Source: a virus. Taken from it: a DNA stretch of 27,937 nucleotides. Location of the stretch: IMG/VR virus record IMGVR_UViG_3300024520_006615, positions 1 through 27,937 of that record, one strand, 5' to 3'. This document shows, one piece after another, positions 4,982 through 10,665 of this stretch (position 1 is the stretch's first letter; each line of letters begins with the position of its first letter). The position numbers and the translations under genes were made by a program. The notes under the pieces were generated by a model, which worked only from the letters and a program-made list of their open reading frames with translations, did not search any database and was not told where the DNA came from.

Positions 4982-5872
<891 letters not shown>

Positions 5873-6989: not shown

Positions 6990-8626
6990 TGCAGCTACGC
7001 CAATACCAGACAGATGCAGTTTATAGCATTTGGGAATATTTTAGGAGTAATGACGGCAACCCAATTGTGGCCATGCCTACTGGCACGGGTAAGTCAATAG
7101 TTATAGCAAATTTTATAAGAGGCGCGCTATCGGTTTTTCCAAACCAAAAATTTATGATGGTAACCCACGTAAAGGAGCTGATAGAACAGAATTTCGAGAA
7201 GCTTCTTTTGCATTGGCCTACCGCACCAGCTGGTATCTATTCTGCTGGGTTAGGCAGGCGGGAGGCTTGGCCGAAAATTGTTTTTGGTGGAATAGGCACT
7301 GTTAAGAATTGCCCCGAAGAGTTTGGGCATGTTGATATACTGCTAATAGATGAGTGCCATCTTGTCAGCCCAAAAGCATTCACGTCATACCGAAAGTTTA
7401 TAGACGCACTCATGGTAGTAAATCCTAATCTACGTGTTATCGGCTTTACAGCAACACCTTACCGCTTAGGCCTGGGCTCGCTACTAGACGGTGGATTGTT
7501 CACCGACACTTGCTTTGATCTTACCGAGCTTAACAAATTCAATAAGCTTGTAGAAGACGGGTACTTAGCCCCATTAATTCCTAAAAGGTTAGGGTTAGGG
7601 TTAAGCGTAGACGGTGTTAAGATCTCTGGCGGTGAGTTTGTCAGCAAAGACCTTCAAGCGGCAGTGGATAGAGAAGAGATAACTCATCAGGCATTGATTG
7701 AGACCCTTGAGGTGGCTTCTGACAGAAAGCATTGGCTCATCTTCGCAACTGGGGTTGACCATGCCAATAATATAGCGGAGATGCTCAACACGTTTGGCAT
7801 TAAGACTGCGGCTGTACACAGCAAAGTGACCAAGAAATATAGGACTGATAGTCTTGAGGCGTTTGCTACTGGTGAGCTGACTTGTCTAGTCAATAACAAC
7901 GTTCTGACTACGGGTTTTGATAGCCCTTGGATTGACCTTATTGTTGTGCTAAGGCCTACCGCATCTGTAGGGTTATGGGTACAGATGCTGGGACGAGGAA
8001 CCAGGCCTTATGCCGGAGATGAGTTCAATCCTGTAAAGGAGAATTGTATGGTCCTCGACTTTGCGAGAAACACCCAACGTCTAGGCCCTATAAATGATCC
8101 AGTTCTTCCCAAAAAGAAAGGGAGCAAGGGGGGGATAGCACCAGTACGGCTATGCGAGAACGTCCTCCCTAACGGGGTGGTATGTGATACCTACGTGCAC
8201 GCATCATTAAGGATCTGTCCTGAGTGCGGTTATGAGTTTCCAATTGGCGTTAAATTTGGTATCTTTGCGGACACGAAACCTCTCATGGCTGCTAGTGATA
8301 TACCATCAGTCGAGATTTTTAACGTAGATAAGGTGACTTACACCAGACACATTAAGCAAGGTGCTCCTGATTCTATGCTGGCAACCTACTACTGCGGATT
8401 TAGGCGCTTCAAGTCTTTTAAGTGTATAGAGCATAAAGGCGGCGCAAGAAAAAGGGCGCTGCGCTGGTGGGGGAGACACTCGCGTCTTGAGATGCCTATA
8501 AGTGTTACTGCTGCGCTCGCTTTGTCAGGAAACCTAGCTGTACCTACCTCTATACGGGTTTGGTACAATAAAAAACATCCAGAGGTACTAGACTATGCCT
8601 TCCAGAATCAACCCTTCATCACCTAA
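6989..8626 (+). CDS. SF2 DEAD/DEAH-type DNA helicase
   Basis: 545 residues. It has all core superfamily 2 signatures: Q-motif-like LRQYQTDAV (3-11), Walker A PTGTGKS (30-36), DECH box (121-124), FTATPYRLG (about 153-161) and motif VI QMLGRGTRP near residue 335. After the helicase core, C..C and CPEC (in the region about 389-418) form a likely zinc finger. A C-terminal domain of about 120 residues has no motif I recognise. The organisation resembles phage repair or replication-restart helicases of the RecG/UvsW/type III-res type. It starts on the last base of the nuclease stop (TAATG), and this coupling suggests a nuclease-helicase pair resembling AddAB-like or Cas4-helicase modules. Partnership is inferred from position. 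Confidence 0.85.
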   Translation: MQLRQYQTDAVYSIWEYFRSNDGNPIVAMPTGTGKSIVIANFIRGALSVFPNQKFMMVTHVKELIEQNFEKLLLHWPTAPAGIYSAGLGRREAWPKIVFGGIGTVKNCPEEFGHVDILLIDECHLVSPKAFTSYRKFIDALMVVNPNLRVIGFTATPYRLGLGSLLDGGLFTDTCFDLTELNKFNKLVEDGYLAPLIPKRLGLGLSVDGVKISGGEFVSKDLQAAVDREEITHQALIETLEVASDRKHWLIFATGVDHANNIAEMLNTFGIKTAAVHSKVTKKYRTDSLEAFATGELTCLVNNNVLTTGFDSPWIDLIVVLRPTASVGLWVQMLGRGTRPYAGDEFNPVKENCMVLDFARNTQRLGPINDPVLPKKKGSKGGIAPVRLCENVLPNGVVCDTYVHASLRICPECGYEFPIGVKFGIFADTKPLMAASDIPSVEIFNVDKVTYTRHIKQGAPDSMLATYYCGFRRFKSFKCIEHKGGARKRALRWWGRHSRLEMPISVTAALALSGNLAVPTSIRVWYNKKHPEVLDYAFQNQPFIT

Positions 8627-8792
8627 ACGGCATACGCATAGGCGTATGATTAGGACCCTTGAGCTTGAGAGCTGTATTAATTGCGATTGGTGGGAGGATA
8701 AGGACGAAAGTTGCTTCAAGTATAAGGTTACCCCTCCGATAGATGTTATAGTCTTTGGTTGTGAAGAATGGACCGATCCTATACCTTTTTAG
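8595..8792 (+). CDS. Small Cys-rich protein
   Basis: 65 residues, overlapping the end of the helicase gene by 32 bases in another frame. The start at 8595 is supported by AGAGG nine bases upstream; an internal ATG at 8646 is possible. From about residue 20 the sequence has CINCDWW, a Cys in SCFKY and a Cys in GCEEW. Four Cys with adjacent aromatic residues suggest a small metal-binding fold. The C-terminus ends in DPIPF, which resembles the DIPF tip with which SSB proteins recruit partners, but this may be chance. I cannot assign a function. Confidence 0.55.
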   Translation: MPSRINPSSPKRHTHRRMIRTLELESCINCDWWEDKDESCFKYKVTPPIDVIVFGCEEWTDPIPF

Positions 8793-8815: not shown

Positions 8816-8843
8816 TTGCTCTAATCCGTGAGAAGCCTATAAT
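8816..8843 (+). promoter_or_regulatory. Promoter before the first shared-domain gene
   Basis: TTGCTC (8816-8821), a 16-base spacer and a perfect TATAAT (8838-8843). Transcription would start near 8850. The gene at 8880 has AAGGA about 8 bases before ATG. Confidence 0.6.
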
Positions 8844-8879: not shown

Positions 8880-9449
8880 ATGACTACTTATGGAACTAGA
8901 GCAACAGCGGTACGCGGGGCAGTAAGGAAACTAAAGGTCTCCAAAGACGTAGCACTTAAGGCGATAACTTTATCAGAAGACGGAGATGGCCGCTGGAGCT
9001 GGGCAGTTAAGGCTGTTCTTCCTTCGGCGGCTGAGCTGGTCGAGACTGAGGAATTGGCCCTACCCGTAGTTTCTAAACCTAACCCTTCTTTATTCGCTGC
9101 AGAAGAAGCTGAGCCCAGCGTTGTTAAGACAATCGTGGTAGCCCCTGCTGACCTACCGCCCGGTGAATATGAAGCAGAGATAGTTAAAATAGAAGTCGCA
9201 CCGATATCGGAGCAAACTATCACTATCGAAGCTAAGCATATAAACGCTAGAAGAATGCATTTTGAGCATTCTTCTACTTGCGAGAATCCTACTCGCTTGG
9301 TTTGGGTAATTGCTGATGAAATGAAAGGCGCCAGGAGAAAGGACGTAATCGCTGCTTGTGTTGATAAAGGTGTAGCGTATAACACAGCCCGAACACAGTA
9401 TCAGTTGTGGTTCACCGCAACTAAGAACAGTAGCCCCGCTATCGAGTAA
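8880..9449 (+). CDS. Shared C-terminal domain protein A (putative DNA-binding)
   Basis: 189 residues; first of three neighbouring genes with the same C-terminal domain. The N-terminus (1-45) is a small basic segment (GTRATAVRGAVRKLKV) ending in GRWSWAV. An acidic, Ala/Val/Pro-rich linker spans about 50-125. The shared domain at about 139-178 reads VWVIADEMKGARRKDVIAAC, then VDKGVAYNTARTQYQLW. Its pattern is W.IAD, a gap, R.dv....., then N.aTA.TQ(Y/F)..W, a helical arrangement resembling a small HTH in which the second half would be the recognition helix. A DNA-binding role is inferred, not demonstrated. It has its own likely promoter and precedes the DNA modification operon. Confidence 0.7.
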   Translation: MTTYGTRATAVRGAVRKLKVSKDVALKAITLSEDGDGRWSWAVKAVLPSAAELVETEELALPVVSKPNPSLFAAEEAEPSVVKTIVVAPADLPPGEYEAEIVKIEVAPISEQTITIEAKHINARRMHFEHSSTCENPTRLVWVIADEMKGARRKDVIAACVDKGVAYNTARTQYQLWFTATKNSSPAIE

Positions 9450-9502
9450 CAGTTCCACCCTTTGTGCTTAATTAATCTAATCTTTTATCTTCGGAGAAAA
9501 AA

Positions 9503-10174
9503 ATGGACAAAATAATCTTAATAAATAATGAAGCTCTTTGCTTTCTTAAGGCTGTAGATTCTGTGGAAAAGGCGATCCTTTGGGCTGACATCCTGGTCCC
9601 TACCTGTGACTACATGGTCACAGACGTCCAGTCTACAAAAACCTTTTCGATCTACACAGATTACGAGTTGAGAAAGCTGTTTTTCAACACGGTAGGGCAG
9701 CACCCTCCTGTTAACACAAAGTACTCTACCCTTTTAAAGGGGGTACTCGACCTAGCAAGCAAGCTTCGGCTTGACGAAACCCCTTTGGAAGATTTAAAGG
9801 GTCGGTTAGAAATTCCCGCTACTGTAGAAGTACCAGTTGACGTTGACCACATTAACGAAACGCTAAACCAGCATGAAGCGGATGAGCCACAGGACTCGCA
9901 TGAAATAGAAGAAGCTGAAGCCGCGAAAAAAGAGAAGCCCAAGACCAAAAAGAAAGCTGCTAAAAAAACGTTGGGTAAACCCAAAGAAGGCACTGCTACA
10001 GCGACCGTTTGGATAATCGCTGATGAGCTAAACAAAGTAGATCCAGGCCTCGGTATTGATTCAAAAGAGTTTAGAAAATGCGTGGTTGATCAATGCGTAG
10101 AGAAGGGCGTAAATAAATCAACAGCATCTACCCAATTTGGGAAATGGAAGAAGCATCTACAAACTATGACCTAA
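9503..10174 (+). CDS. Shared C-terminal domain protein B
   Basis: 223 residues; second member of the trio. The first 100 residues form a globular region unlike the other two members, with several Phe/Leu/Tyr positions and C13 and C34. Then comes an acidic stretch (about 115-140), a Lys/Ala-rich segment (about 143-163, KKEKPKTKKKAAKK) and the shared domain at about 170-218: VWIIADEL, FRKCVVDQCVEKGV, NKSTASTQFGKWKK. The basic segment beside the domain would suit nucleic acid contact. GGAGA lies upstream of the ATG. N-terminal function is unknown. Confidence 0.7.
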   Translation: MDKIILINNEALCFLKAVDSVEKAILWADILVPTCDYMVTDVQSTKTFSIYTDYELRKLFFNTVGQHPPVNTKYSTLLKGVLDLASKLRLDETPLEDLKGRLEIPATVEVPVDVDHINETLNQHEADEPQDSHEIEEAEAAKKEKPKTKKKAAKKTLGKPKEGTATATVWIIADELNKVDPGLGIDSKEFRKCVVDQCVEKGVNKSTASTQFGKWKKHLQTMT

Positions 10175-10187
10175 TTGTTCATATCAA

Positions 10188-10210
10188 GGTGACTACTTTA
10201 CCTAGTCACC
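10188..10210. other. Perfect inverted repeat between the second and third shared-domain genes
   Basis: GGTGACTA (10188-10195) and TAGTCACC (10203-10210) around a 7-base loop, with no T-run after it. It is therefore not a standard terminator. It could be an mRNA stabiliser or an operator for a dimeric regulator, perhaps one of the neighbouring proteins. Confidence 0.55.
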
Positions 10211-10268
10211 CTAATATGGGTGTCAAGATTATACTCGTAAGACAAACTATTAATAGGAAGAATTTATC

Positions 10269-10613
10269 ATGAGCAAAGAAAAAGAAGTAGAAGTAGACGC
10301 GGCTTTGGCTGGAGAAGCCAAAGCTAAGGTAACGAAAAAAACAGCGCCTAAAAAGAAGGCTCCTAAAAAGCAGCCCCTTGTAAGGAAGGTACCGGACCAC
10401 AAAAACGGAGTCACTCGTCCTGGTAAAAATACCAAGACAGGTAGAATCTGGGAAATAGCCGATACTTTATCCAAAAAGATGGCTGAACCAGCACCTCGCA
10501 GAGATGTCCTAGCACAGGCCAAAGACGAGGAAATAAATATGGCTACAGCGGCAACTCAGTATGGACGCTGGAGAAAGTACAACGGGCTAAAGGGGAAGGG
10601 TACAGAAGAATAA
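10269..10613 (+). CDS. Shared C-terminal domain protein C with histone-like Lys-rich tail
   Basis: 114 residues; shortest of the trio. Residues 18-41 are Lys/Ala/Pro-rich (KAKVTKKTAPKKKAPKK), like the tails of histone H1 or bacterial H1-like proteins. The shared domain follows at about 58-104: GRIWEIADTL, RRDVLAQAKDEEI, NMATAATQYGRWRKY. This is the cleanest copy and almost the whole protein. A basic tail plus the domain fits a small abundant DNA-binding protein. A strong terminator follows at 10635, closing this transcription unit. AGGAAG lies before ATG. Nucleoid-like function is a hypothesis. Confidence 0.7.
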   Translation: MSKEKEVEVDAALAGEAKAKVTKKTAPKKKAPKKQPLVRKVPDHKNGVTRPGKNTKTGRIWEIADTLSKKMAEPAPRRDVLAQAKDEEINMATAATQYGRWRKYNGLKGKGTEE

Positions 10614-10634: not shown

Positions 10635-10665
10635 AAAAGGGGAACTTATGTTCCCCTTTTTTTTA
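10635..10665 (+). terminator. Strong rho-independent terminator before the modification operon
   Basis: AAAAGGGGAAC (10635-10645), loop TTAT and GTTCCCCTTTT (10650-10660) form a perfect 11-bp stem that runs into a long T tract. It isolates the shared-domain genes from the preQ0 operon. Confidence 0.93.

Follow-up and report, generated by a model that had tools for sequence, protein, structure and literature searches.

Three adjacent genes of a virus record, here called A, B, and C, are homologous paralogues that carry one C-terminal domain, and together with their relatives they form a real, conserved, uncharacterized, and modular family. We give a probability of about 50% to the reading that their products are DNA-tethering or regulatory phage proteins, with C perhaps autoregulated. 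The shared domain, which appears tri-helical and helix-turn-helix (HTH)-like, would bind DNA and serve as a tether, and each paralogue would bring a distinct N-terminal module to the phage DNA. The window, i.e., the whole stretch of DNA analyzed here, is an IMG/VR virus record of 27,937 bases, and its genes were named via their likeness to annotated relatives. On the + strand, genes for a DUF669-like protein, an exonuclease, and a helicase and a small CxxC open reading frame (ORF) are followed by A, B, and C, and then by QueE, QueC, QueD, FolE, DpdA, a clamp, and DNA polymerase. The three genes are thus located in a DNA-metabolism block, with the helicase on one side and QueE on the other. The synteny helicase-A-B-C-QueE-QueC-QueD-FolE-DpdA is Queuovirinae-like, and VpKK5 and other Queuovirinae-like phages have the same gene order as the window. 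The features in and around the three genes are listed in Table 1. The small ORF between the helicase and A (8595–8792) encodes 65 aa with a CxxC...C...C pattern, and VpKK5 has a small ORF in the same place. In the DUF669-like protein (4982–5872), a long tail is rich in Q and N and includes runs of Q. An Rfam search of the whole window gave 0 matches.

Table 1. Features of genes A, B, and C and of the DNA around them (window coordinates; aa, amino acids)
Feature	Position	Strand	Description
Gene A	8880..9449	+	189 aa: N-motif, acidic linker, C-terminal shared domain; ORF call; slot-1 orthologues before B and C
A-type N-motif (KxYxxKSxAxRAAK-like)	8880..9002	+	HMM E 9.3e-9, window copy in seed
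Shared domain, copy in A	9291..9416	+	Domain HMM i-E 2e-18
Gene B	9503..10174	+	223 aa: globular N-terminal domain, K/E/A-rich linker, C-terminal shared domain; phrog_7864; AlphaFold2
B-type globular N-terminal domain (~residues 1-103)	9503..9811	+	Blocks of residues 1-100 with pLDDT 94-98
Shared domain, copy in B	9998..10156	+	Domain HMM i-E 7.4e-17; predicted helices 165-179, 188-200, 205-222
Inverted repeat between B and C	10180..10218		16-nt arms, 14/16 paired; exact core 10188-10210
Promoter-like GTGACT-17-TAATAT before C	10189..10217	+	Overlapped by palindrome
Gene C	10269..10613	+	114 aa: low-complexity Lys-rich tail, NGVTRP segment, shared domain; PHROG matches, AlphaFold2
Shared domain, copy in C	10437..10580	+	Domain HMM i-E 4e-20; predicted helices 56-71, 77-86, 91-104
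Intrinsic-type terminator between C and QueE	10635..10664	+	11-bp stem, then T tract

The original prediction, that the ORFs starting at 8880, 9503, and 10269 share one C-terminal domain of about 45 residues on unrelated N-termini, was confirmed. Local alignment of the whole proteins gave scores of 84, 69, and 115 for the three pairs (mean scores after shuffling, 33, 30, and 39), and 0 of 1000 shuffles matched the observed score in any pair. The alignment was also highly significant when the group profiles of the three domains were compared with hhalign (E = 2.5e-16, 3.7e-25, and 2.9e-21). For the regions N-terminal to the domain, the scores were 26, 24, and 41, and these were equalled in 856, 719, and 143 of 1000 shuffles; because shuffles often reach such scores, the front parts of the three proteins are not detectably related. 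An iterated domain HMM recognized all three copies, and its i-E values in Table 1 should be read with the window copies in mind as part of the seed. The consensus of 58 diverse rows is VWxIAD......RKxV..AC...GIN..TAxTQY..W, in which one T and the Q are invariant and the W, the R, the second T, and the last W are nearly so. Each type also has its own signature: TARTQYQ.W in A, TAaTQFGKWKK in B, and ATaATQYGRWRK in C. The domain is mostly C-terminal and is found on many unrelated N-terminal parts.

Among known families, B matched phrog_7864 (E = 2e-24, residues 4–218), and C matched phrog_11298 (E = 3.4e-16) and phrog_18634 (E = 3.6e-16), all of unknown function. The best PHROG match of A itself had an E-value of 0.059, and A is linked to this family through the domain HMM and hhalign. 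The 58 domain rows likewise match these PHROG families (49, 30, and 25 of 58); PHROGs 7864, 11298, and 18634, and also 22313 and 21588, represent one domain family split over several groups with no assigned function. Pfam, NCBIfam, and PADLOC gave chance-level matches at most for A, B, and C, and PDB sequence profiles gave nothing significant for C, the A-type domain, or the 58 domain rows. The orthologues of C in Iggy, CA8, Vid5, and EC151, which lie in the same place, are labelled “putative transcriptional activator” or “FtrA domain-containing.” Pfam, NCBIfam, and PDB lend the activator label no support: for an FtrA-type activator profile there was no Pfam or NCBIfam match up to E = 5 for A and C, and only a chance-level one for B. 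The accessible portions of the Vid5 and EC151 papers contained no evidence for it either. The domain is not described in the accessible parts of the literature covered, mostly outside subscription journals (PMC8265664, PMC6884629, PMC8310023, PMC6266253, PMC8306585).

Structure models were obtained for B and C, and the copy of the domain in A was assessed by sequence. The AlphaFold2 models had a mean pLDDT of 85.8 for B and 78.2 for C, and the 10-residue blocks of the domain were mostly > 90. The domain consists of three helices in both models, so the predicted folds agree, and a compact tri-helical domain of this kind would be compatible with DNA binding. No PDB chain reached E < 0.001 in Foldseek searches with either model; in BFVD, the B model had 6 matches at E ≤ 0.001, all uncharacterized or unnamed. 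Among the structural families listed by VIA-align, the neighbors of C were weak, and the best was a designed cage (Z = 5.3), but they were rich in HTH and winged-helix proteins, such as PefI (Z = 4.5), SelB (Z = 4.2), LexA (Z = 4.1), and Fur (Z = 4.0). Those of B, whose N-terminal domain they barely covered, were mixed and not HTH-dominated. The three-helix models and the weak, HTH-rich neighbors of C suggest a likely, putative HTH identity of the shared domain. PefI, the LexA N-domain, Fur, and DeoR resemble it in having three helices similarly arranged (Z up to 4.5), a range that may reflect a common arrangement alone, and a palindrome over a promoter-like element is a further likeness to small HTH or winged-helix regulators. 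In contrast to these regulators, the shared domain has no visible wing and no sequence match to them. An alternative that we consider rather unlikely is that the domain is a protein address tag, which docks A, B, C, and others on one phage or host protein, possibly of the replisome, a recombination complex, or the virion, without contacting DNA. One conserved, mostly C-terminal domain on many unrelated front parts would suit such a tag, as would the TA.TQ and W residues common to all paralogues, which a single partner would predict, and the lack of a significant match to DNA-binding families. However, it does not account for the HTH-like neighbors of C, and it leaves the palindrome and promoter-like arrangement before C without a role.

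The front parts agreed only partly with the original description, which held for the globular domain of B, was incomplete for A, where an N-motif in the first ∼40 residues precedes the acidic linker, and for C named a Lys-rich tail that is not a trait of the family. The N-motif was found in 29 distinct proteins, and the shared domain was present in 29 of 29, in a sample that is biased because the seed included the window copy and domain hits had guided the fetching of loci. Some A-type relatives have CxxC segments with weak zinc-ribbon matches, the best of which (E = 0.00094) was below the Pfam cut-off. In other organisms, proteins of the SprT-like family act on DNA–protein crosslinks. In one relative, a SprT-like protein (L042:5203–5886; PF10263, E = 1.6e-8, 34.8 bits, cut-off 25.6) occupies the first slot of the trio and has the shared domain at its end. 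The globular domain of B occurred in 52 distinct ORFs, of which 40 had the shared domain and 12 had no significant match to it; some of the latter are truncated at contig ends, and some have an apparent diverged copy, as judged by eye.

The DNA around C contains several signals. The palindrome noticed earlier is exact (8 + 8 nt, with a loop of 7) and extends to the longer arms given in Table 1, and its overlap with a promoter-like element was supported. A 16-nt pair of this kind (loops of 3–10) was found once in the window and once across 20 dinucleotide shuffles combined, and the hairpin had P = 0.075 against shuffles of the gap. The promoter-like element of the window is weak on its own, with a score of 8 of 12 that is expected often in this gap (P = 0.91); its position is that of a motif enriched upstream of C in relatives. 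Of the 58 regions of 150 bases that precede C, 13 contained a strict pattern (TTGAC-17-TA..AT), itself set after looking at the gaps; the mean in shuffles was 0.03. The counts elsewhere were 1 of 26 regions before A, 0 of 26 before B, 0 of 58 at QueE, and 0 of 56 inside the helicase, which served as a control. We regard the strict pattern as the fair count because the loose one was widened post hoc, after inspection of the window and the loci L008 and L104. In 36.7 kb of VpKK5, the strict motif occurs only before A and before C. The general sigma-70 score was barely raised over 34 gaps (8.29 vs. 7.80; P ≤ 0.05 in 4 of 34). Inverted repeats at P ≤ 0.05 were found in 13 of 34 B–C gaps, where ∼1.7 were expected, and in 2 of 9 A–B gaps. 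In several relatives the repeat overlaps the promoter-like element with a different sequence, and a sequence-conserved palindrome was rejected, since the arms differ among phages. The palindrome was also rejected as a terminator, as it is not listed among terminators. Many relatives also have a stem after C, and the annotations of Seurat and PaMx25 place terminators at this site. Before A, the window has a TATAAT (8838–8843) that lacks a good −35 box.

With a promoter-like element and a palindrome upstream and a terminator downstream, C would form a separate unit, and this layout, which is usual for an autoregulated DNA-binding protein, suggests that C may be one. The reading of A, B, and C as DNA-tethering or regulatory proteins is favored by the homology of the domain, its three predicted helices, the HTH and winged-helix proteins among the weak neighbors of C, the SprT-like fusion, the site between the helicase and QueE, the enrichment of the strict motif before C, and the inverted repeats in the B–C gaps. 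It is weakened by the absence of a significant fold or sequence match to known DNA-binding families, by the designed cage as the best match of C and the mixed neighbors of B, and by the unexceptional promoter-like element of the window, the unconserved palindrome sequence, and the many A and C proteins whose total charge is not basic. The original interpretation was partly supported: the amplified domain family with its conserved gene order, the compact fold, and the palindrome over a promoter-like element agree with it, and DNA binding, an action on transcription, and mixed assemblies are putative.

We also analyzed the spread of the family. In a tblastn search of 50,697 phage records, gene C had matches in 152 when E-values up to 1 were accepted and in 149 at 0.01; among 72,556 plasmid records it had 0. 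With the iterated HMM, 214 distinct ORFs had the domain (i-E < 1e-3) among 142 sequences, i.e., the window and fetched loci, several of which overlap or are duplicates. In 61 QueE-bearing loci, de-duplicated by their last domain gene, the 3.5 kb upstream of QueE contained three domain genes in 26, two in 25, one in 9, and none in 1. The layout and the three paralogue types recur in relatives, in line with the expected amplification of the domain just before the modification operon. In 49 records hand-picked from the fetched loci, there were 1 to 5 copies per record, and in the 29 of these with at least 40 kb there were 2 to 5, counts that are lower bounds because of the threshold of the A-type profile (E = 0.001). 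It is unusual that one lineage has a small domain at such a number per genome with many front ends, and the domain genes adjoin a well-studied DNA-hypermodification operon. In a tree built from 208 domain sequences (29 A, 38 B, 67 C, and 74 other), the type labels, defined by motifs outside the domain, required 28 changes, whereas none of 200 shuffles required fewer than 94. Because the labels track the domain tree in this way, the sequences speak for an old multiplication of the domain rather than a recent local one. A genome scan based on one short motif, which diverged copies may escape, confirmed one locus, in a Desulfocapsa MAG, where the phage gene order is identical from the exonuclease to PolA.

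The linkage of the domain to deazaguanine genes was strong but not absolute. QueE or DpdA was found in 27 of 29 chosen domain-bearing records of at least 40 kb, and in some of the 27 QueE and its neighbors alone were seen. The two exceptions, G005 and G011, have the domain and no DpdA or QueC match. DpdA matched 236 phage records, 152 of them over at least 80% of the query. In a comparison of genus totals, not of individual records, the numbers of records with the domain and with DpdA were equal in Escherichia (40/40), Vibrio (23/23), Rhizobium (14/14), Enterobacteria (8/8), Providencia (4/4), and Stenotrophomonas (3/3), but differed in Pseudomonas (32 vs. 30). DpdA was also found in Mycobacterium (52), Cellulophaga (7), and Arthrobacter (4), which are outside the ten commonest domain-bearing genera. 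The domain therefore does not occur always and only with the deazaguanine pathway, as G005, G011, and the Mycobacterium DpdA records indicate, and because of these exceptions and the unmatched DpdA genera we conclude that it is a marker of one phage lineage and not of the pathway. The same data bear on the possibility that A, B, and C serve the pathway as dedicated partners, which guide DpdA to its sites or regulate the que operon. The position of the genes directly upstream of QueE, the 27 records, and the six genera with equal counts agree with it, whereas the two exceptions, the DpdA genera without a counterpart, the Pseudomonas counts, extra domain copies far from que genes, and the terminator-like hairpin between C and QueE make it distinctly improbable. 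In G005, a 46.8-kb record, two domain proteins (L084:4100–5159) are located beside an integrase-like gene, named by eye.

A still more doubtful role for C is that of a nucleoid or histone-like phage protein, which would coat the phage DNA or compact it; this role is suggested by the Lys-rich tail and the net charge of +13 in the window and by the long K/A/E-rich tails of some relatives. Across 36 C-type proteins, however, the net charge ranged from −4 to +8 for the N-tail and from −6 to +16 for the whole protein, and several were acidic; neither a basic tail nor a strongly basic protein is conserved, and the histone-like reading was rejected on this ground. Five C-type relatives have a hydrophobic, signal-peptide-like start (L028:6884, L065:6833, L032:7857, L037:7903, and L004:17454), which in L028 and L032 is preceded by a good ribosome-binding site. 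This segment is absent from C in the window and would be odd for a cytoplasmic DNA-binding protein.

If the domain binds DNA, its proteins are candidate regulators or tethers of Queuovirinae. TF1 of SPO1 is of the HU/IHF type. According to a title cited in PMC8306585, this phage protein needs hydroxymethyluracil in DNA for its site-specific binding, and it thus sets a precedent for the adaptation of a phage protein to the modified base of its own phage, with no kinship in sequence or fold to the domain being claimed. In the accessible text of Hutinet et al. (PMC6884629), it is noted that DNA-binding proteins dependent on the guanine N7 might be blocked by deazaguanines and that phages encode transcription factors of their own; the family makes this question of deazaguanine and DNA-binding proteins testable. 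A further reading, very unlikely in our view, is that the domain reads the phage's own 7-deazaguanine-marked DNA in preference to host DNA, in which case the modules (protease, zinc-ribbon-like segments, charged tails, and the globular domain of B) would be delivered selectively to phage genomes, as a self/non-self addressing system within the infected cell.

When 203 N-terminal parts were clustered, 92 groups were obtained, 11 of them with at least two members; 92 is not the number of domain kinds because most singletons are low-complexity C-type tails. Two other front ends looked “SAP-like” and “SH3-like” by eye, and these labels are not claimed, since Pfam gave nothing; the PDB profile of the former matched just a designed filament (E = 0.11). 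In VpKK5, a further short copy of the domain, comprising mainly the second and third helices, is located in a leftward gene block (L004:3847–4155, − strand).
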